Positions 1-17,714 of a stretch of DNA of 20,613 bases are shown here, in pieces. Location of the stretch: IMG/VR virus record IMGVR_UViG_3300044632_000902, positions 1-20,613 of that record. One strand, 5' to 3'. A program made the translations under genes and the position numbers. Numbering within the stretch: position 1 is the stretch's first letter; each line of letters opens with the position of its first letter. The notes under the pieces were generated by a model. It saw only the letters and a program-made list of their open reading frames with translations, did no database searches and was not told the origin of the DNA. This DNA comes from a virus.

Positions 1-3000
1 GTTGATAGTGCTTCGATTGTTACTGGAGGATCCGGATATTCAGTATATGAAGTAGCAGATGTTGAAATAATTTCTTCTGGATCTAATTATAATACAGATT
101 CGGCAGGACTGGTTTTAACTATAAATTATTTAGGACAAACAGCAACATTTACAGCCACAGTTGATACTGAAACAACAGTACCGGGAGAAAACGATTTATT
201 ATTTCCAATTAAGACAGTTACTCCTCTTGATAGGGGGCTTTGGAATGTATTACCGACCGCACCTTTAATTGCTGTTTCAGAACCTACATTTAGTTCAGAT
301 GGCTCTACCTTAAGTGGTGGATGTGTTTTAAGATTAACCTTTAGAGAAGTAAACGTTGGATCATCAGTACTAACAGTAAATTATGAAGGTCAAATAGCCA
401 CGTTCTCTGCTGCAATCTCTGCAGGAGAAGTAATCTCAGTAGAACCGATTGTTAGAGGAAGATTTACCACAATTAGAACAGCCCCAGTAGCGACTTCGGT
501 TGAACCTTCATACGGGTCAGGAGCTACTTTATCGATTGTATACAGAGAAAAAATAACCAAAGGTTGGAGACATTTAGAAGACTCAAACTACAGCGGAATT
601 TTTAATCCATTCGGAGGTTATAATCCGTATACCGGGTCGTTCGATACATCTGCCGCTGTAAGATTTTATCCTGCTGGAAGTGTTATATGGTGGGATAATA
701 AGTTATGGAAGGCCCTTGTTGACACAAATTTAAGCGACGACGGAAGTTCTTTTTATCTAGGATTAAGTGATTGGATTGAGCTAGATCCTATTTCCACCCA
801 ATGCTCTCTACCGACAAATGTAGCTCTTGGCGACGACGGATCTACTTTAGCAGCAGGATTATTGGATAAAAATCAGATAGCAGAATTAGTTAAAGCAGGA
901 GATCTGTTTGGATCTAGCCTAGCTATGAACAAAGATGGCAGTATTCTAGTTGTAGGTTCTCCTAACAGCGACGGGCAGTTTTTTGTAAATTATAGGGGAG
1001 TATGGAGTCAGTTTCAGGAATACACAGAATCGGATGTAGTACAGTATGACGGCAACTATTATAGGCTCATGGATACTTCAACCCCTGGACCGGTCGATTC
1101 TTCTATAGTCAGTAAAGGAGATATTCCTGTTCCTGGGATAACAGAATTGACGTTATCAGATTCGACACCCTGGCTACCTGTAGGAAATCTCAGCACAGTT
1201 AGTTCTGGAAAAATTCACATTTATAAAAAAGATAGCAACGATGTTTATAATTTAATACAGGTTGTTACTTCTGAAAATATAGATAGTTATAATAACACAG
1301 ATTCGGGATTAGATATAGGAATTTATTCTGGAGACAAGTTTGGATTTAGTTTAGATCTAGATCAAACTGGATCTACTTTGGTTGTTTCTAGTCCGGATGC
1401 AGATACTAATTTGCAAAATCAAGGTTCTGTATATGTGTTTACAACTACAGATTTAGATTCTCCTATATACAATCTTGAACAGAAAATTTCTAGCTACGAA
1501 TCTTATAACAATGAACAATTTGGTTTTTCTGTAAGTGTTGATTATAACTCCGAGAAAATTGTTGTAGGTGCAAAAAACGCTCCTTATAAAATTCCTGTGA
1601 GATTTGACATTTCTGCAGGAACAACTTTTGATGGAAATGCTACTAGTTTCAGCGAACCTCAAGGATATACTGGTCAGGTGTATGTGTTCGAAAAGAAATC
1701 TAATATCTATTTGTTAGCAGAAAAATTAGAAGCTGATTTACAAAATGCTGAATCTTTTGGATATAGCATCGATACTTTTGGCTCAGTCATAGTCACTGGA
1801 TCTCCTAATTATAGAGCACCTCTTGAAACAGAGGCCCAGGCGTTAAGTTCACATCCGATAGGAATAACAAGATTATTCAAGAAAGATTCTAATGTTAATT
1901 CCTGGAATACGTTGGCTCAGCAAACACAGAAAGTAGACATTGATTTAATTACCTCGATAGAAGTCTATGACGAAGTTACTAATCTTAAGCTGGCCGATGT
2001 TGATATAATAGATCATGCAAAGTTGAAAATTTTAGGAATAGCTGAACAAGAGATTAGTTACAAAACTGTATATGATCCTGCAGTCTATACTAACGGAACA
2101 GATGAACAAGTAGTAGATGAAACTACTGCCTGGTTTGAAAAAAATGTAGGCAAGCTATGGTGGAATCTATCTACAGTAAAATGGATAGATTACGAACAAG
2201 GCGACGATGTTTATAGATCTGGAAACTGGAACGGATTAGCTTTCGGGTCATCCATTGACATCTATGAATGGGTAGAATCGTCGCTGTTGCCTTCGGATTG
2301 GAGCATACTTGCTGATACAAATGAGGGACTGGCCGAAGGAATATCTGGACAGCCATTATATTCAGATAATACAGTGTACAGTGTAAAAGAAATATACAAT
2401 GTAAACACAGGTCAATTAACCGGAACTAGATATTATTTCTGGGTTAAAAATAAAGCAATATTACCAACAAACACTGTAGGAAGAAGATTGCCTTCTTCGG
2501 ACGTGGCATCGCTTATAATTAATCCTGCTTCTTCTGGTTTACCGATAATAGCTTTATTAGATTCTAATAAATTCTTGGCTTACAATTTTAATTCTTTATT
2601 AGAAAATGATACTGCTTATTTGAATATACAGTATAAGAAAAACAAAAAATCAAATAATTTAAGTCATAATGAATATTTGTTATTGTCTGAAAATTTAATA
2701 GGTAGTATTCCTAACCAAGACATTGAAACTAAATGGATAGATAGCTTGGTTGGTTTCGACCAAGCAGGTAACTCAGTTCCAGATCCTAAAATACCTGAAA
2801 AGCAAAGATACGGAATATCTTTCAGACCAAGACAAGGTATGTTCGAAGACAATAATAAAATATTAGGTATTTTAATTGATAGAATAAACGAGCATTTATT
2901 ATTAAGACCTTTTGCAGATACTTTAAATTACGAAAATTTAAACTTAGTCGATCCTAAACCAGAACAAAGTTCAAATGAGTTCGATGATGAAGTAGATAAT

Positions 3001-6000
3001 TTTATCGATTTACAAAATATTAATACTGTTAGACTCAAACAGGCAGTATTAACTGTGAATATAGTTGATGCAGAAATTGATACAATTGATATTGTAGATC
3101 CTGGATTCGGTTACAAAATACCTCCTCCTATAGAAATAGAAGGTGACGGATCAGGAGCCAAGGCCGAATTAATCATCGATAACCAAGGAAGGGTATCATC
3201 GGTAACCGTAATCGCTAAAGGAAAAAAATATACTTCAGCAATAGCTAAAGTAAGAAGTTATGCAGTGTTGGTAAATGTAGATGAAACAGCTAACGATTTC
3301 TGGAGTGTTTATTCTTATGACACTGTGAGAAAAGATTTTTTCAGAAGTAAGTCGCAGGGTTTTGATACGACAAAGTATTGGTTGAAGATTGACTGGTATG
3401 CGACAGGCTACTCTAAAACTTCCAGGATCAGTAAAGAAGTAGGATCTCTCTATGAAGAAAGCTCATTAGCTATACAAGAAGGAGATCTATTAAAAGTTAA
3501 AGAATTTGGATCCGGTGGTTGGGCATTACTTAATAAAGTAAAAGAAGGTGCTGGAGATGTTCTCAACAACTATGAATTGGTCGGTCGACAAAACGGAACG
3601 ATTCAGTTATCTACAAAATTGTATAGTAAGAGTTCTCAAATACTAGGCTTTGATGCAACTAGCTCTTACGATACCAGTGAGTATGATTTATTGCCGTCAT
3701 TAGAATTAAGAAATATCTTAAATGCAGTTAAGCAAGATATTTTTATAGAAGATCTAAGAAACGAATGGAATAATTTATTTTTAATTTCTTTAAGATATGC
3801 TTTCTCAGAACAAGAATATATTGATTGGGCATTTAAAACAAGTTTCTTAAATGCAACACATAATGTTGGCTCTTTAGAACAGAAAATAAATTATAAGAAT
3901 GATAATCTTGACAGCTTCAGAAGTTATGTAGAAGAAGTTAAACCTTATCGAACCACAATAAGACAATATAAGAGTAGGTACACAGGATTAGAAATAACAA
4001 ATTCTGTAATCAGTGATTTTGATTTACCTCCAGCGTACTCTAGCGCCAGCGGAAAAATTTTACCGATTAATAGTTCTTTTGATCTAACAGATCAGTATCC
4101 TTGGAAAAATTGGAAAGATAATTTAGGATTTGAAATAAAAGAAATCTTAGTTTCTAATAGCGGAGATGGATACACCTCTGCGCCAACGGTATTAATAGAA
4201 GGCGATGGTTCGGGTGCAGAAGCGATAGCTTTTATAACTAATAAAAAACTAAGATCTATTAAATTAATATCCGGAGGAACAGGATATACAAAAGCACCTA
4301 CCGTATCGTTAGTCGGTGGAAACGGATTCAATTCTAACGTAGCTAAGGCAGTGGCAATTTTAGGAGAGTCACCGATTCGAACTTTCGACGTCAAATTAAA
4401 ATTTGATAGAATAAGCAAAACTGGAACTTTATCGGAATTTAATTTTTCACAATCATTTACAGCTAGTGCATCGTCCGCTGTATTTGACTTAAAATATGCG
4501 CCTAGCAAAGATAGAAGTAAGATTTCAGTCACACGAAATGAACAGATTGTTTTCAACAATGAATATGAAATTATCTACTATACTTCAACAGTTGACACAT
4601 ATTCCTTAACTAAGGCAAAAATAAAGTTTTTAATTCAACTCGAGCAGGGAGACTTAATAACTGTTGCCTATGAGAAATTTAACGAAATTTACGATAGCGT
4701 TGATAGAATAAATTCTTATTATAATCCTGTCGAGGGAATGAAAGGCAAAGTAGTGAGTCAATTAATGACTGGTATCGACTACGGCGGTATTCAAATTCAA
4801 GGCACAACTTTTGATGTTAGCGGCGGCTGGGATGCGTTGCCTTGGTTTACTGATGCCTGGGATAGTGTTGAATCAAATAATGATTACCATTATGTAGTTT
4901 CTAGCGCAGACGACGGTAGTACTATAACAGTTTTATTACCAAAAGCTCCTGCGGCTAATCAGCGAGTGTCGATCTATTTGAAACGTGCTGGATCTAAAGA
5001 ACTAAGAACTATAGAAACTTTGGATGCAAACGGTAATCCTGTTGTGGTTTACGACGAAGCTGTTGCTGAGCCTCCAGTTATAAGAATCGATGATCCTTAT
5101 TTTGGAATGTACGACGGTAGTACAGTTATGCCTAACGGCAGAACAACCGAACCAGAAAATGCATTAATGCCTACGTTTGTCGGCGATGGAGAAAACAGAA
5201 CAGTAGTTTTTGATGAATACGGAGTTCAAACTTTCCCTGGTGATACATTAATTTTTAGAAATTTTGAAAGCGACGGAACTGTTTCTATTAAAGATCCTAA
5301 TCTTTTAGACACTGAACTCAGCGGAGGATCTTTTGCAGGTACTTGGAGTAATAATCTAATAGGACCTAACGCTGTTGCAGGATCTTACACTACCGCACAA
5401 GGAACGTTAGCTCAAGATATTTCGATTGATGGCGGAAAATTAATAAGTCCCGATCAAGTACCAGCTCCAGAAGAAAATATACCTGGACAAGTATTAGAAA
5501 GTTTAAGTATTAAAGTTTTTAACTCAACTTTTTCGGGAGGATCTCCTGTTAATTTAAGATTATACTTTGCTGACGGTATACAAAAGAATTACGATATAGG
5601 TTTACATATTCTAGAAGGTAAATCTCTTGTTGTGTATATCGATAAAATAAAACAAGAATTTATTGAAGGAAGTAATTTAATATACACAATAAATTATTCA
5701 ACTAATCAAGTAGAATTTGTTGATACTCCTGTTGCGGGATCATTGATAGAAATAATTTCGATAGGAGTTGGCGGAGTATCGATATTAGATTATACCGAAT
5801 TTGTAACAGACGGTGAGACTTCTCATTTCCTAACAAAGGCAAATTACTCAGATACCCAATCAGTGTTAGTCACTGTAGACGGAATAGAAGTAGACATAGG
5901 TTTTGTTGAAAGTTCGACAGTGACGGAAACTACAGGAAAAACTCTAATTGAGTTTAGCACCCAACCAGAACGAAATCAAGTAGTAAAAATTGTTGTTCTG

Positions 6001-7509
6001 GGAGCATCGTTAGATACAGACAGTACCCAGCAGTCTATTATCAGATCCAATCAACAGACTTTTATATATGACGGAAGTACTAGAAAATACGATTTAGATA
6101 AATTTGTTAATTTAACTAGAAACAGTTCAAAGTCTGCCATGTTAGTAGAAGTTAACAATGCACATTTACAAGGCGTCGATGCCGTAGTTCAGGTATACGA
6201 TGGTACAAATAATACAGTAGCATTAGGAATAGATCCAATTGAAGTTTCAGGAACTATTACTTCAAATAACATTAAAGTTTTTGTTAATAATGTTGAGCAA
6301 TCATTCTTAGTCGTATGGACTTATAATGGAACTACTAGTATAGTAACAGTTTCTACTACGTATCTCCAAGTAGGAGATATTATAAAAGTTGAAAACGATG
6401 TAAGAAGCCAATACAATATTGTCAGCAATGATATATTAATAAACGATTTGGTAGATTTAACAGCTGGAGATTTGATAACTGTAACTTGGTTCAGCGAATA
6501 CCCAACTTTCGATATCGTTAGTGACGAATACACAGGAGGAAAATCAATTTATAGATTGTCATCTACTCCTATAAATTCAAGTTATGTTTGGGTATACAAA
6601 AATGGTATACGTTTAACAGGAAACAAAGATTATTCTGTGTCTCTTCCGAGATCTGTATTATATCTCAATGATGAAACTACATCATCGGATAAAATTAAAA
6701 TCTTCCAATTTGGTAATAGGATTTACAAAAAATCATCTGCATATCAAATATTCAAAGATATGTTAAATGTTTATCATTATAAACGTTATTCTATTGATAG
6801 AAATGTAAAATTAGCTCAAGATTTAAATTATTATGATCAAGTTATTAAGGTAACTGATGCATCCAATCTTTCAATTCCTATAACTTCTAGAAATATTCCA
6901 GGAATTATTGAAATCAATGGAGAAAAGATCGAATACTTAGTATTAAGTGGAAACACATTGTCTCAATTGAGAAGAGGAAGTTTCGGCACAGCAATAGCAA
7001 CGGTGCATGAGCAAGGAAGTCATATAGTTAATTTAGGATCTTCTGAGAACATTCCTTACGTTGAAGAACAAGATAAAAATAATTTCATTAGCGACGGTAG
7101 TACGTTGTTGGTAGGTCCGTTACCTTATGTGCCTAACAAATCAACTAGAAATTCTTGGTATAGAACAGATATACCTTCTGAATATGGACCTTGTGATCAA
7201 ATAGAAGTATTTGTTGGCGGTGTTAGACTAAGAAAAGATCATATCACGATTTATAAAGAAGAATTAGGACCATCTAGCCCGTTAGCAGATACTACATTAC
7301 AAGCAGAATTTAGCGTTGACGGAGATTCAAATTACGTAAGACTTTCCGAACCGGTAAAAGCTGGAACTAGAATAACTATAGTTCGTCGAACTGGTAGATC
7401 TTGGTACGAAAGAGGAGAAACAACGGCAACATCGGGCTTAAGTTTATTGGATAACAATACTCCGATTGCAGTATTCTTGTCGCAAAAGACTACGGAGTTG
7501 CCCGAATAA
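1..7509 (+). CDS. Giant modular virion structural protein, 5' end missing (2502 codons present)
   Basis: Frame 1 is open from the first base to the TAA at 7507-7509, so the gene starts outside the window. An in-frame TTG at 862 has no ribosome-binding site and lies inside a conserved repeat, so it is not the start. Modules in order (residues counted from base 1): two possible CBM5/12-like segments (about 221-263 and 331-393); FG-GAP/integrin-type propeller repeats (about 274-605, with FGSSLAMNKDGS, FGFSLDLDQTGS, FGFSVSVDY, FGYSIDTFG); a Trp-rich segment near 717 (GKLWWNLSTVKWIDYEQGDD); glycine-rich GDGSGA repeats near 1048 and 1401; a KPYRTTIRQYKSRY motif at 1314; a series of beta-rich repeats at about 1500-2200; an LSQLRRGSFGT module near 2320; and a C-terminal module with RLRKDHITIY. 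From memory, these modules recur in very large virion proteins of marine T4-like phages. Its place ahead of the fibres suggests a baseplate or baseplate-attached protein, but no T4 gene number can be assigned. Confidence 0.85.
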   Translation, partial: VDSASIVTGGSGYSVYEVADVEIISSGSNYNTDSAGLVLTINYLGQTATFTATVDTETTVPGENDLLFPIKTVTPLDRGLWNVLPTAPLIAVSEPTFSSDGSTLSGGCVLRLTFREVNVGSSVLTVNYEGQIATFSAAISAGEVISVEPIVRGRFTTIRTAPVATSVEPSYGSGATLSIVYREKITKGWRHLEDSNYSGIFNPFGGYNPYTGSFDTSAAVRFYPAGSVIWWDNKLWKALVDTNLSDDGSSFYLGLSDWIELDPISTQCSLPTNVALGDDGSTLAAGLLDKNQIAELVKAGDLFGSSLAMNKDGSILVVGSPNSDGQFFVNYRGVWSQFQEYTESDVVQYDGNYYRLMDTSTPGPVDSSIVSKGDIPVPGITELTLSDSTPWLPVGNLSTVSSGKIHIYKKDSNDVYNLIQVVTSENIDSYNNTDSGLDIGIYSGDKFGFSLDLDQTGSTLVVSSPDADTNLQNQGSVYVFTTTDLDSPIYNLEQKISSYESYNNEQFGFSVSVDYNSEKIVVGAKNAPYKIPVRFDISAGTTFDGNATSFSEPQGYTGQVYVFEKKSNIYLLAEKLEADLQNAESFGYSIDTFGSVIVTGSPNYRAPLETEAQALSSHPIGITRLFKKDSNVNSWNTLAQQTQKVDIDLITSIEVYDEVTNLKLADVDIIDHAKLKILGIAEQEISYKTVYDPAVYTNGTDEQVVDETTAWFEKNVGKLWWNLSTVKWIDYEQGDDVYRSGNWNGLAFGSSIDIYEWVESSLLPSDWSILADTNEGLAEGISGQPLYSDNTVYSVKEIYNVNTGQLTGTRYYFWVKNKAILPTNTVGRRLPSSDVASLIINPASSGLPIIALLDSNKFLAYNFNSLLENDTAYLNIQYKKNKKSNNLSHNEYLLLSENLIGSIPNQDIETKWIDSLVGFDQAGNSVPDPKIPEKQRYGISFRPRQGMFEDNNKILGILIDRINEHLLLRPFADTLNYENLNLVDPKPEQSSNEFDDEVDNFIDLQNINTVRLKQAVLTVNIVDAEIDTIDIVDPGFGYKIPPPIEIEGDGSGAKAELIIDNQGRVSSVTVIAKGKKYTSAIAKVRSYAVLVNVDETANDFWSVYSYDTVRKDFFRSKSQGFDTTKYWLKIDWYATGYSKTSRISKEVGSLYEESSLAIQEGDLLKVKEFGSGGWALLNKVKEGAGDVLNNYELVGRQNGTIQLSTKLYSKSSQILGFDATSSYDTSEYDLLPSLELRNILNAVKQDIFIEDLRNEWNNLFLISLRYAFSEQEYIDWAFKTSFLNATHNVGSLEQKINYKNDNLDSFRSYVEEVKPYRTTIRQYKSRYTGLEITNSVISDFDLPPAYSSASGKILPINSSFDLTDQYPWKNWKDNLGFEIKEILVSNSGDGYTSAPTVLIEGDGSGAEAIAFITNKKLRSIKLISGGTGYTKAPTVSLVGGNGFNSNVAKAVAILGESPIRTFDVKLKFDRISKTGTLSEFNFSQSFTASASSAVFDLKYAPSKDRSKISVTRNEQIVFNNEYEIIYYTSTVDTYSLTKAKIKFLIQLEQGDLITVAYEKFNEIYDSVDRINSYYNPVEGMKGKVVSQLMTGIDYGGIQIQGTTFDVSGGWDALPWFTDAWDSVESNNDYHYVVSSADDGSTITVLLPKAPAANQRVSIYLKRAGSKELRTIETLDANGNPVVVYDEAVAEPPVIRIDDPYFGMYDGSTVMPNGRTTEPENALMPTFVGDGENRTVVFDEYGVQTFPGDTLIFRNFESDGTVSIKDPNLLDTELSGGSFAGTWSNNLIGPNAVAGSYTTAQGTLAQDISIDGGKLISPDQVPAPEENIPGQVLESLSIKVFNSTFSGGSPVNLRLYFADGIQKNYDIGLHILEGKSLVVYIDKIKQEFIEGSNLIYTINYSTNQVEFVDTPVAGSLIEIISIGVGGVSILDYTEFVTDGETSHFLTKANYSDTQSVLVTVDGIEVDIGFVESSTVTETTGKTLIEFSTQPERNQVVKIVVLGASLDTDSTQQSIIRSNQQTFIYDGSTRKYDLDKFVNLTRNSSKSAMLVEVNNAHLQGVDAVVQVYDGTNNTVALGIDPIEVSGTITSNNIKVFVNNVEQSFLVVWTYNGTTSIVTVSTTYLQVGDIIKVENDVRSQYNIVSNDILINDLVDLTAGDLITVTWFSEYPTFDIVSDEYTGGKSIYRLSSTPINSSYVWVYKNGIRLTGNKDYSVSLPRSVLYLNDETTSSDKIKIFQFGNRIYKKSSAYQIFKDMLNVYHYKRYSIDRNVKLAQDLNYYDQVIKVTDASNLSIPITSRNIPGIIEINGEKIEYLVLSGNTLSQLRRGSFGTAIATVHEQGSHIVNLGSSENIPYVEEQDKNNFISDGSTLLVGPLPYVPNKSTRNSWYRTDIPSEYGPCDQIEVFVGGVRLRKDHITIYKEELGPSSPLADTTLQAEFSVDGDSNYVRLSEPVKAGTRITIVRRTGRSWYERGETTATSGLSLLDNNTPIAVFLSQKTTELPE

Positions 7510-7512
7510 ATA
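7505..7512 (+). promoter_or_regulatory. Putative T4-type late promoter box
   Basis: AATAAATA matches 7 of 8 bases of the T4 late promoter TATAAATA. It overlaps the stop codon of the giant gene. In T4, transcription starts about 6-7 bases after this box, which here is about 7518. That places the AGAAGAG ribosome-binding site and the ATG at 7538 inside a short leader. In AT-rich DNA such a box can arise by chance. The position at a gene junction and the shared ATAAATAC core with the box at 14495 are the main support. Confidence 0.45.
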
Positions 7513-7524
7513 CACTATGGATTT

Positions 7525-14494: not shown

Positions 14495-14502
14495 CATAAA
14501 TA
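14495..14502 (+). promoter_or_regulatory. Putative T4-type late promoter box before fibre paralogue 4
   Basis: CATAAATA, followed by CT, matches 7 of 8 bases of the T4 late box TATAAATA. It lies in a 41-base gap, the second largest in the window. A start point 6-7 bases downstream (about 14508) would leave a leader of about 14 bases holding the GGAG ribosome-binding site at 14512-14515 before the ATG at 14523. Spacing and location are what a late promoter needs. No experimental signal can be seen here. Confidence 0.55.
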
Positions 14503-14522: not shown

Positions 14523-16271
14523 ATGGCATATCAAGTTGATAAATTTAACGGCACTTTTTTAGTATCTGTTGACGATGGTACTATTGATACAACCACAGAT
14601 CTAAGATTTGTTGGTAAAAATTATGCTGGTTATGGCGAAGTGCAAAATGAAAATTTTCTTCACTTGCTAGAGAATTTTGCCAATACGACAGCTCCTCCAA
14701 AAAGAATTACAGGTCAAATTTGGTTTGATACTGGTAGTAAAAAGCTTAAGTTTTTTGACGGTACTAGATTCAGAACTGCTAGTGGTGCAGAGATTGGAGT
14801 TGAACCCCCTCCAGGATTACAACCAGGAGATATGTGGTTTGACACAAGTGCAGAACAGCTTTATACCTGGAACGGAACAGAATACATATTAATTGGTCCC
14901 ATAGCCAGTCCTACCACGGGCGAATCTGCGGCAGTTCAGGATACAGTAAAAGATGATGTTAATAACAATCATTCTATTTTAAAATTAGTTTCTGAAGGCG
15001 AAGTTGTTGCGATTTTGAGTGCAGATTCTTTTAGACTTAACACATCCAACTCAATTACCGGTTTCCAAGATATTAAGAAAGGTATCACTCTTGTAAACAC
15101 TAATGGAACTACGGGTGTAACAAGTACCGATCATTATTTTTGGGGTACTGCTGCTAATGCAGTTAAGTTGGGAGGTTTTTCTGCATCGGATTTTGTTAGA
15201 TCCGGAGCAGCAACGTTTTCTACGGGATTATCAGTAGCTGATTCGGGATTGACAATTGGCGATCAGAATGATCTTAGAATATGGGTTGAAGATGGTAACA
15301 ATGTTTTATTAGAAAATCAACTAGGCGATAATATTACCTTTAGAATTAAAACATCTACTAACACCGATGTTTTGAGAATTTCTTCTACAGGAGTATTTCC
15401 TCCTACAGATTCAACATTTAATTTAGGAACTTCTGGTAGTGCTTGGTTACAAGTAACTGCTAATACCTTCAATGGTTCATTAGTAGGAAATGTAACAGGA
15501 AATACCACAGGTGTACACAAAGGAAACGTACTAGCTAGCGATAATTCAGTAGCTTATAATGCAACAACAAAAGTTTATACCGGTAGTTTTACCGGAAATC
15601 TAACAGGAAACGTTACAGGTAGTGTTACAGGTACAGCGTCTTCGGCATCTACATTGGGTGGTATTTCTGCTTCAGAGTCCGTTTCTAATAGTACGATTCC
15701 AATTAGAACATCTTCGGGTAACATTCTAGCTAATCAATTTGTAGGAACATCTGATAAGACCGACAGATTAAAAATTAATGATGCTGCCTCCGATACAGAT
15801 CCAAATTATCGTTCAGCCAAAACTACGGCTACAGCCAGTACTATAGCTGCTAGAGACTCGTCCGGAGATATATATGCTGTTAAGTTCAGAGGAACTGCAA
15901 CAGCAGCAGAATATGGCGATTTAGCAGAAAAATATCTACCAGATCAAGATTATGAAGTGGGAACAGTTGTATCTGTAGGCGGCGAAAAAGAAATTACAGC
16001 ATCAAAATTTGGAGACAGAGCGATAGGTGTTGTTTCAGAGTTTCCTGCATATCTTATGAATAACAATTTATCTGGTGGTGTAGCGGTAGCACTTAAAGGA
16101 AGAGTTCCTGTTAAAGTTGTTGGAGCAGTTAAAAAAGGCGATCGATTGATTGCAGTTGATAATGGAACTGCACAAAAAGCTGCATTTCACTCTCATGCCG
16201 ATGTGTTTGCTATAGCTTTAGAAACCAATGATGAAGTACAGCAAAAACTTGTTGAATGTATCGTAATATAA
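14523..16271 (+). CDS. Tail fibre/adhesin paralogue 4 with AEYxDLAExY C-terminal domain (582 aa)
   Basis: This is the shortest of the four paralogues. Residues 1-130 are the docking domain, closest by eye to paralogue 3 (KFNG, GKNYAGYGEVQNENF, FLHLLENFAN, GQIWFDTGSKKLKFFDGTRF from residue 64, then GDMWFDTSAEQLYTWNGTEY). The shaft contains DSTFNLGTSGSAWLQVTAN and two blocks of the 12-base Gly-x-x-Thr repeat (residues about 318-329 and 354-371). From about residue 461, AAEYGDLAEKYLPDQDYEVG opens the same C-terminal domain as in paralogue 3, about 120 residues with LKGRVPVKVVGAVKKGDRL and a diverged end (SHADVFAIALETNDEVQQ). It has its own late-promoter-like box at 14495 and a GGAG ribosome-binding site, so it may be transcribed separately from the three genes upstream. 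The function as a virion adhesin follows from its domains; the receptor is unknown. Confidence 0.82.
   Translation: MAYQVDKFNGTFLVSVDDGTIDTTTDLRFVGKNYAGYGEVQNENFLHLLENFANTTAPPKRITGQIWFDTGSKKLKFFDGTRFRTASGAEIGVEPPPGLQPGDMWFDTSAEQLYTWNGTEYILIGPIASPTTGESAAVQDTVKDDVNNNHSILKLVSEGEVVAILSADSFRLNTSNSITGFQDIKKGITLVNTNGTTGVTSTDHYFWGTAANAVKLGGFSASDFVRSGAATFSTGLSVADSGLTIGDQNDLRIWVEDGNNVLLENQLGDNITFRIKTSTNTDVLRISSTGVFPPTDSTFNLGTSGSAWLQVTANTFNGSLVGNVTGNTTGVHKGNVLASDNSVAYNATTKVYTGSFTGNLTGNVTGSVTGTASSASTLGGISASESVSNSTIPIRTSSGNILANQFVGTSDKTDRLKINDAASDTDPNYRSAKTTATASTIAARDSSGDIYAVKFRGTATAAEYGDLAEKYLPDQDYEVGTVVSVGGEKEITASKFGDRAIGVVSEFPAYLMNNNLSGGVAVALKGRVPVKVVGAVKKGDRLIAVDNGTAQKAAFHSHADVFAIALETNDEVQQKLVECIVI
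15474..15509 (+). repeat. In-frame 12-base repeat block A (3 units)
   Basis: The units GGTTCATTAGTA, GGAAATGTAACA and GGAAATACCACA encode GSLV-GNVT-GNTT. The tract sits 72 bases before a second block of the same unit in the same gene. Confidence 0.6.
15582..15635 (+). repeat. In-frame 12-base repeat block B (4.5 units)
   Basis: Four full units (GGTAGTTTTACC, GGAAATCTAACA, GGAAACGTTACA, GGTAGTGTTACA) plus a partial GGTACA encode GSFT-GNLT-GNVT-GSVT-GT. The period is exactly 12 bases, so gain or loss of a unit keeps the frame. Confidence 0.7.
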
Positions 16272-16283
16272 GGAAGAATAAAA

Positions 16284-17303
16284 ATGGCATCAGTCGGATC
16301 ACAAATATCAGCAGCGGACTATAACGCTATTAGAAATAAAATCATAGCTGTTATGGGAACAGGTACAACAAATCCTACCACCGGAGTGACTGATTATACA
16401 TTTGGCTATGGACAACAATTAATGAGTTCGGCTGTGTCAGAAGGACAAACGATTACTAGAGCACAGTTTGAAAATTTAAAAAATGACATATTAAATGCTA
16501 GACTACACCAAGATGGAACAACTCCTACTATTACCACAGTTAACGTTGGCGATGTTGTAAGATATGGAGCCACCCATCCAATAACACAATACGATACATT
16601 AACTTCTACAGCTATTACTAATAAATTTAATCTAGGAACAGGGTACTTTAGTACAGTAGCAGTTAAAGATAACGTAGGTACAGATCTTGTTATGCCTATT
16701 ACGAGAACTACTAGCTGGAGCTCTAGTGTTTCTTGTAACGTTACAGCTACTTTTGCTAGTGTAAATGCAATGCGTTACTTCTTCAATAGCGGCGGCCGAA
16801 TCAATTTTAATAGTAGCAGAACAGGCGGTGCTTCAACTTCTCAAAACAACATATGGTCTTCGACTTTAACCTCGGCAGGTACACAGGGGCTAGGTTCAAT
16901 CAGTAGCGGAAACCAAGGTGTTAATTTTTATAATCTCACAACGACTGATCAAATTTGGTATTCGATTACATCTTCGGCTCCTTATGCTTCGAATACGTGG
17001 AGATTACGAGCTAGATTAGGAAGTGGGGCAGTGGGTACTTCTACGTTTACGGCAACATCTATTATTTTTACAATTACTTGGACCGACGGATATACAGATC
17101 CTGATACAAATGCTGGAAACCCAGCACTAACCAATCCACCAGCTGACGTGGTAGATGGAACATTGAATTTAACAGTTACCCAAACTTATGCCGGTAGCAC
17201 ATCTGGAATTAATTTATTACCTGTAGTAACACCTCCTGCAGTTCAGCCAGTATGGACAATTACATTGCCTACATATAGTAATACTGCAATCTCTGGTTCA
17301 TAA
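16284..17303 (+). CDS. Ser/Thr/Asn/Gly-rich virion structural protein (339 aa)
   Basis: Recognised from memory as a family widespread in marine T4-like phages, annotated only as a structural or hypothetical protein. The N-terminal 80 residues look helical and differ from the fibre docking domain: ISAADYNAIRNKIIAVMGTG, a GYGQ motif near 43, TRAQFENLKNDILNARLHQDG. The remainder is beta-rich and very rich in Ser, Thr, Asn and Gly, with NAMRYFFNSGGRINF, SRTGGAS, NTWRLRARLGSG and TITWTDGYTDPDTNAGNP, then a proline-rich C-terminus. No Cys pairs, signal peptide or catalytic motif is evident. An AGGAAGA ribosome-binding site precedes ATG, 12 bases after the paralogue 4 stop, so it is likely transcribed with it from the box at 14495. 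The distinct N-terminus suggests a different attachment point on the virion (inference). Confidence 0.75.
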   Translation: MASVGSQISAADYNAIRNKIIAVMGTGTTNPTTGVTDYTFGYGQQLMSSAVSEGQTITRAQFENLKNDILNARLHQDGTTPTITTVNVGDVVRYGATHPITQYDTLTSTAITNKFNLGTGYFSTVAVKDNVGTDLVMPITRTTSWSSSVSCNVTATFASVNAMRYFFNSGGRINFNSSRTGGASTSQNNIWSSTLTSAGTQGLGSISSGNQGVNFYNLTTTDQIWYSITSSAPYASNTWRLRARLGSGAVGTSTFTATSIIFTITWTDGYTDPDTNAGNPALTNPPADVVDGTLNLTVTQTYAGSTSGINLLPVVTPPAVQPVWTITLPTYSNTAISGS

Positions 17304-17314
17304 TCTCATATCCC

Positions 17315-17352
17315 TAATTTAAGTAGCACTAAATAATATGCTACTTTAATTA
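17315..17352 (+). terminator. Long imperfect hairpin between virion and glycosyltransferase gene groups (possible terminator)
   Basis: The left arm 17315-17328 (TAATTTAAGTAGCA) pairs with the right arm 17339-17352 (TGCTACTTTAATTA) at 13 of 14 positions, with a 10-base loop. The central 8 bp (AAGTAGCA/TGCTACTT) are perfect. It follows the stop at 17303 by 11 bases. The stem is AT-rich and is not followed by a T run, so it is not a textbook rho-independent terminator. It may instead act in RNA processing or stability. On DNA the same symmetry would read from either strand. Confidence 0.45.
17329..17335 (+). promoter_or_regulatory. Late-promoter-like box inside the hairpin loop
   Basis: CTAAATA fits the TAAATA core of the T4 late box (TATAAATA) and lies wholly in the hairpin loop. 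A start 6-7 bases downstream (about 17341) would leave a leader of about 22 bases with the GGGG ribosome-binding site at 17354-17357 before the ATG at 17364. The match is weaker than the boxes at 7505 and 14495, and position is the main support. Confidence 0.4.
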
Positions 17353-17363
17353 AGGGGATATAA

Positions 17364-17714
17364 ATGGATGAACGTCTTCGAAAAGCCTTAGATTTTTCCA
17401 ATTTTAGGCATACTTTTTCAATTCAAAGAAAAATTTTAAAAGAAAAAAACGAAGCCCGCCTGACCTACGGCCATGCCGGTGGTATATTTAAAATTGATAT
17501 GTCGCTGATCACTTTTGTTGATATGCTTATTAACAATGGTCGGAAAAACGATGTACCTTTATTAGACTCGAATGACAATCCTATTTTAATTAATGATTTA
17601 GAAGAATTTAAAAACGAAATATTAGATAGATATTTTACTTCTACTTTAGAGTATTATAAAGAATACGAAAAAGTAAAAAAGACAAGGTCATTAGAAAAAC
17701 TGTTAGAACTATGA
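17364..17714 (+). CDS. Small conserved phage protein of unknown function (116 aa)
   Basis: The protein resembles, from memory, a short conserved hypothetical family of T4-like marine phages found near the fibre genes. It is charged and probably mostly helical: DERLRKALDFSNFRHTFSIQ, a central beta-like FKIDMSLITFVDMLINNG, a conserved-looking DSNDNPILINDLEEF segment near residues 70-85, and a basic C-terminal helix (YYKEYEKVKKTRSLEKLLEL). There is no membrane segment, signal peptide or enzymatic motif. A GGGG ribosome-binding site lies 6 bases upstream of the ATG. It is the first gene after the hairpin and its stop overlaps the start of the next gene by four bases (ATGA), so it heads a coupled operon with the glycosyltransferases. 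A structural or chaperone role would be a guess. Confidence 0.7.
   Translation: MDERLRKALDFSNFRHTFSIQRKILKEKNEARLTYGHAGGIFKIDMSLITFVDMLINNGRKNDVPLLDSNDNPILINDLEEFKNEILDRYFTSTLEYYKEYEKVKKTRSLEKLLEL

Follow-up and report, generated by a model that had tools for sequence, protein, structure and literature searches.

A putative late promoter nested in a hairpin that pairs the ribosome-binding site of a probable tail-fibre chaperone gene in an uncultured T4-like phage

Late promoters and ribosome-site hairpins in phage T4

In phage T4, the combination of a late promoter with a hairpin over the ribosome-binding site is a described mechanism of gene control (PMC3014915, PMC2988022), and the genes I-TevII, I-TevI, 49, e, segB and 26 are named as hairpin-controlled in one or the other of these papers. 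The effect of such a hairpin can be expressed as the opening cost, which is the computed free energy required to unpair the ribosome footprint from -14 to +3. The probability of an unpaired Shine-Dalgarno sequence gave no discrimination from shuffled sequences, and the opening energy was therefore used instead. In the T4 controls, the opening cost of the read-through RNA and of the RNA started at the late promoter is 15.8 and 4.3 kcal/mol for e, 15.6 and 3.2 for 49, and 13.2 and 0.4 for I-TevII. The leaders of the T4 genes 55 and denV are costly too and have no late box, so the opening cost alone is not specific; the informative quantity is the change of the opening cost with the 5′ end rather than the cost itself.

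A blind census covered 1972 genes from 20 phages or contigs, and the six T4 genes listed above came out near the top. The comparison of read-through with promoter-started RNA is a cheap computational test, which recovers these six known cases unprompted. The same census shows that the divergent T4 genes 26 and 51 (116428 and 116479) share an AT-rich region, where each late box lies in a hairpin taking in the ribosome-binding site (ddG 10.5 and 9.6); gene 26 is listed in PMC2988022, and gene 51 was not seen on that list. A genome-wide association of late boxes with hairpins was not found in the census outside T4 and the clade described below. An opening cost of at least 10 occurs in 6.7% of the late-box genes and 5.2% of the other genes of PA5oct, with corresponding values of 4.2% and 8.8% in P-SSM4 and of 0% and 3.6% in HTVC008M.

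The hairpin and its genomic setting

The stretch of DNA considered here, called the window, is 20,613 nucleotides (20.6 kb) long and is a fragment of a T4-like phage with tail and tail-fibre-type genes. The features discussed below are as follows.

7506-7512, + strand: ATAAATA late box ahead of the ORF that begins at 7517, without a hairpin (motif scan)
14496-14502, + strand: ATAAATA late box of the upstream gene 14523-16271, the nearest + strand NTAAATA upstream of the element (motif scan)
16284-17303, + strand: upstream gene of 339 aa in a tail-fibre-like position, presumed source of read-through RNA, stop codon at 17301-17303 (ORF, position)
17308-17361, + strand: RNA hairpin of 20 bp with left arm 17308-17328, loop 17329-17338 and right arm 17339-17361 (fold, pairing, covariation)
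17329-17335, + strand: putative late-promoter-type box CTAAATA in the loop, predicted RNA start at about 17340-17342 (T4 consensus TATAAATA, orthologues, strand bias)
17352-17357, + strand: Shine-Dalgarno AAGGGG of the 116-aa ORF, its GGGG (17354-17357) paired with the left arm in read-through RNA (sequence, fold, opening energy)
17364-17714, + strand: putatively controlled gene, 116 aa, KALDFSNF family, predicted fold like DUF4376, a tail-fibre chaperone domain (AlphaFold, Foldseek)

The first-pass annotation described two arms, TAATTTAAGTAGCA (17315-17328) and TGCTACTTTAATTA (17339-17352), paired at 13 of 14 positions around the 10-base loop CTAAATAATA (17329-17338). Arms, pairing and loop are exactly as it claimed and the hairpin is real, but its length was understated, since the pairing extends outward to 17308-17361. 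The fold consists of three stem segments, in which 17308-17315 pairs with 17354-17361, 17316-17319 with 17348-17351, and 17321-17328 with 17339-17346. The outward extension is the part that pairs the Shine-Dalgarno of the next gene, whose presence in the right arm (GGGG, 17354-17357) had been overlooked. The minimum free energy of the region 17295-17375 is -26.7 kcal/mol (z -6.3), and none of 200 shuffles folded as well. Within the window, this is the sole hairpin with at least 13 of 14 arm pairs and a loop of 3-12 bases; dinucleotide shuffles contain on average 0.08 comparable hairpins per window, and such a hairpin is present in 6 of 100. The 60-bp intergenic gap between the ORF end at 17303 and the ORF start at 17364 is almost entirely hairpin, and the left arm begins 5 nt past the upstream stop codon. 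The search for a known RNA family gave only sub-threshold chance matches to the hairpin.

The element had been placed at the border of the virion and glycosyltransferase gene groups. It does lie between the virion genes and the next gene group; the first gene behind it, however, does not code for a glycosyltransferase but for a small protein whose predicted fold is DUF4376-like, and the two 280-aa genes that follow find no support as glycosyltransferases in Pfam, NCBIfam or PHROGs. The AlphaFold model of the 116-aa protein (pLDDT 92) matches DUF4376 proteins in Foldseek with E values of 5e-4 to 1e-2 and TMq of about 0.5-0.7, and the matches in the PDB are limited to weak ones with prefoldin. 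Sequence-family searches in Pfam, PHROG and NCBIfam gave no match, DUF4376 included. DUF4376 proteins are tail-fibre chaperones in the Alteromonas phages V22 and A5 (PMC7289586, PMC10579305), and in relatives of the window the 116-aa gene is placed behind fibre-like ORFs. From predicted fold and position, the best guess for the 116-aa product is probably a tail-fibre chaperone. At the other end of the window, a 2215-aa ORF (862-7509) has separate parts that match virion structural, baseplate wedge and head closure PHROGs.

The late-promoter box and its sigma factor

The box CTAAATA in the loop differs by one base from ATAAATA, the usual form in this clade, and the orthologues L013-L015 have ATAAATA at the same place of the loop. 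Boxes of the type NTAAATA that precede genes are predominantly on the coding strand. For ATAAATA, the ratio of coding to opposite strand is 16:0 in the clade of the window, 46:5 in marine relatives and 42:1 in P-SSM2 and P-SSM4. For CTAAATA, the same-to-opposite ratio is 14:0 in P-SSM2 and P-SSM4 and 7:2 in marine relatives; the bias is absent in PA5oct (7:5) and T4 (0:1), and in the window's own clade it comes from the 116-aa gene only. The ATAAATA motif is also described before structural genes in phage CBB (PMC5259590). The larger contigs of relatives encode a gp55-type late sigma (phrog_12791, E 1e-81) closest to the sigma of PA5oct; the gene is not in the window itself, which is a 20.6-kb fragment. 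No hairpin was found at the other late boxes of the window.

A computed switch in ribosome-site accessibility

The start of late RNA about 6 bases past the box, at about 17341 in this case, follows from the geometry of T4 late promoters. At the sequence level, the read-through stem pairs the Shine-Dalgarno, and the box at 17329-17335, identified by sequence only, is placed so that the predicted transcript lacks the 5′ arm. The opening cost is 17.0 kcal/mol for read-through RNA and 3.7 kcal/mol for RNA started at 17341, and with other RNA ends it is 12.8-13.9 against 1.7-4.7 kcal/mol. The scan of 5′ ends gives 10-17 kcal/mol for ends at or before 17311 and 2.5-4.6 for ends at or after 17317, so that earlier starts hide the ribosome site and later starts expose it. 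Because this step falls between 17311 and 17317, the switch is insensitive to the uncertainty of the start position. The suggestion of the first-pass annotation that one element divides read-through RNA, able to form the hairpin, from newly started RNA, unable to do so, is borne out by these computations.

These results point to the following mechanism. Read-through transcripts from the upstream tail-fibre-like genes would carry the entire hairpin, and their right arm would pair the Shine-Dalgarno of the 116-aa gene, leaving ribosomes unable to load. A gp55-type late sigma would recognise CTAAATA in the loop, and the RNA begun there would start within the right arm, without the left arm. Such RNA would have a free Shine-Dalgarno and be translated, and the 116-aa protein would be made only from its own late mRNA. 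We consider it likely that the element is indeed a late promoter nested in a hairpin that sequesters the ribosome-binding site, and that synthesis of the 116-aa protein is confined in this way to the late mRNA of its own gene.

Conservation among relatives

In IMG/VR, 46 homologues of the 116-aa gene were found, and none among cultured phages. Covariation was analysed in six distinct leaders, which are those of the window, L008, L010, L012, L013 and L014. RNAalifold predicts the same two stems across all six, with five pairs changed on both sides. Among these sequences, 88% of the stem cells are paired, compared with 43-60% for slid partners, and 8 cells are changed on both sides; the covariation score was reached by shuffles once in 500 times. 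The changes of the arms keep the pairing, G-U included, while some outer-stem pairs are broken in some of the leaders. The TAAATA of the loop is invariant in all six while the arms differ. Compensatory changes of this kind, which the first-pass annotation had proposed to look for in related phages, are present, and the element is both real and conserved.

The switch in accessibility is likewise computed for the orthologues. The opening cost of read-through and started RNA is 20.1 and 6.9 in L008, 13.8 and 3.8 in L010, 13.7 and 3.8 in L012, 10.1 and 2.7 in L013, and 11.3 and 3.5 in L014; in L015 the sequestration is no better than in shuffles (z 0.8). Among 270 genes of the relatives, the 116-aa orthologues take ranks 1, 2 and 3.

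The more distant homologues have several different arrangements. The marine group L031-L041 has GTAAATA just ahead of a stem that is not the one described above but likewise includes the Shine-Dalgarno; the opening cost there is 7.7-13.3 for read-through and 1.7-2.5 for started RNA. In L016 and L022, the hairpin is stronger and terminator-like, with U6 between it and the ATG. In L018-L030 and L040, the promoters are mostly sigma70-like and the structure is weak; examples with a weak hairpin or none are L018 (z -0.8) and L023 (z 0.7). The homologues L042-L047 have neither promoter nor structure, and in L042-L045 the gap is 9-13 nt. The idea that every homologue retains the Shine-Dalgarno hairpin and that the class of promoter changes from late to sigma70 was rejected: clear support came from L022 only (z 9.1), weak support from L027 and L040, and L018, L023, L024 and L030 stayed within shuffles.

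Alternative explanations

The hairpin could mainly end the upstream tail-fibre mRNA, or protect its 3′ end from exonucleases, with the overlap of the promoter as a means of saving space. This is consistent with the short distance from the upstream stop codon, with the U6-bearing hairpins of L016 and L022, and with the unrelated T4-like locus L145 (2526), where a 13-bp hairpin with the loop TAAATAAT is followed by a U-tract. In the window and close orthologues, however, there is no U-tract past the right arm. An intrinsic terminator was rejected for this clade; in the window the right arm is followed by AAAUG after GGGGAUAU, and the terminator scan finds none. The conserved outer stem specifically takes in the Shine-Dalgarno, and L042-L047 lack any hairpin at the same gene border. 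This explanation is unlikely, and the termination, cleavage or stabilisation of read-through RNA proposed in the first-pass annotation is unsupported, though stabilisation of the upstream mRNA could coexist with the hiding of the ribosome site.

It is also improbable that the box is no promoter and that the hairpin acts simply to repress translation, or is an RNase III-type target whose cleavage frees the ribosome site. The single-base difference of CTAAATA from the consensus would agree with this, and an RNA stem of this length (20 bp), interrupted by an internal bulge, is a possible substrate of RNase III. The loop speaks for a promoter: TAAATA is invariant against varying arms, NTAAATA is kept in orthologues with different arms (as ATAAATA in L013-L015), and the motif is strongly strand-biased upstream of genes.

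An inverted repeat acting as DNA, for example as a protein-binding palindrome or a cruciform modulating the opening of the late promoter, would explain the symmetry of the arms about the box, but it is very improbable, as other late boxes of the same phages lack such arms and the arms change with pairing kept, including G-U, as expected for RNA. That the inverted repeat arose by chance in AT-rich intergenic DNA, as the few shuffled windows with a comparable hairpin might suggest, is hardly credible given the coincidence of a late box in the loop with a Shine-Dalgarno in the arm, the fold z score, the compensatory conservation and the top rank among 270 genes.

Possible role of the element

The nested late promoter and ribosome-site hairpin, which is the preferred reading, raises the question of what is separated. 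The nearest upstream boxes on the + strand (7506 and 14496) are of the late type, and the read-through RNA is therefore probably late too. As the upstream genes are apparently late, the early-versus-late logic of T4 is not directly transferable; if the upstream RNA is truly late, the device must serve something other than timing. Its role may be to fix how much chaperone is made relative to fibre, or to protect against occasional early transcripts that read through. A wider proposal, possible but doubtful, is that the nested promoter and hairpin isolate two late units rather than early from late, so that the fibre mRNA yields no chaperone and the chaperone's own promoter determines its amount; under this proposal the arrangement would be a compact module for setting protein ratios that recurs independently in T4-like phages, one version of it combining a terminator with the promoter.

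Further candidates

The opening-cost test yields new candidates, including the endolysin gene of another T4-like phage. This gene (L175, minus strand 6887, contig G018) codes for an M15-peptidase endolysin (Pfam PF08291, E 4e-21; phrog_894), and its leader combines an ATAAATA box with a hairpin of -20.8 kcal/mol hiding the ribosome-binding site. By analogy, the leader is likely an independent counterpart of that of T4 gene e. The largest difference between read-through and new-start RNA in the census (14.8 kcal/mol, ddG 13.6) belongs to the hypothetical gene gp275 (477 aa) of PA5oct (NC_071039, 135020; L183 +15020), which immediately precedes the UvsX-like recombinase gene and has ATAAATA between the arms. 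In the same phages as the 116-aa gene, a gene of 94-96 aa (MSRPKP...; L050 -8151, L051 +9317, L065 +3817, L208 -4883) has a late box and then a conserved hairpin with changed arms, and is the clade's second candidate for such control.

The exact core of the element occurs in 34 stretches. A mobile element placed before other genes was rejected, as most non-orthologues are not long hairpins; the two exceptions are L140 and L145. In L145 (2500-2550), the 13-bp hairpin and its U-tract are directly followed by the ATG of a 307-aa ORF, so that terminator, late box and leader are combined in one 40-bp element. In L140, on the minus strand before the ORF 6796-6044, a perfect 11-bp stem with the loop TAAATAAT has the start codon in its right arm. 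This ORF is a head-tail adaptor (phrog_211), and RNA started at the box would be nearly leaderless.

Comparison with known systems

The late promoters of CBB- and PA5oct-type jumbo phages and of T4-like cyanophages share with the present locus the ATAAATA type of box and the gp55-type sigma (PMC5259590); unlike here, most late boxes in the genomes examined lack a ribosome-site hairpin. The leaders of the homing endonucleases I-TevI, I-TevII, I-TevIII and segB of T4, and mobE of Aeh1, form a related known set (PMC2988022). In I-TevII, TATAAATA lies between or within the arms CCTCGTAT and ATACGAGG, with the Shine-Dalgarno in the right arm, which is the arrangement of the present locus too (PMC2988022). 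Those leaders delay an endonuclease, which in I-TevI protects intron splicing, whereas the 116-aa gene is not an endonuclease.

The leader of T4 gene e, and also those of soc and 49, places the Shine-Dalgarno within a hairpin whose formation is restricted to read-through RNA (PMC3014915). As at the present locus, the late promoter of e is sited so that late RNA loses the left arm, with opening costs of 15.8 against 4.3 kcal/mol in e and 17.0 against 3.7 kcal/mol here. In contrast, the read-through RNA of e is early and its product is lytic, whereas here the upstream genes have late boxes of their own and the gene encodes a small, chaperone-like protein. The mechanism is thus known from T4, and the new aspects are the gene, the phage group and the setting behind apparently late virion genes instead of early or middle ones. 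The reach of a textbook T4 control device is in this way widened to include uncultured T4-like phages and, with the probable tail-fibre chaperones, a class of genes that is absent from the T4 list of such control.
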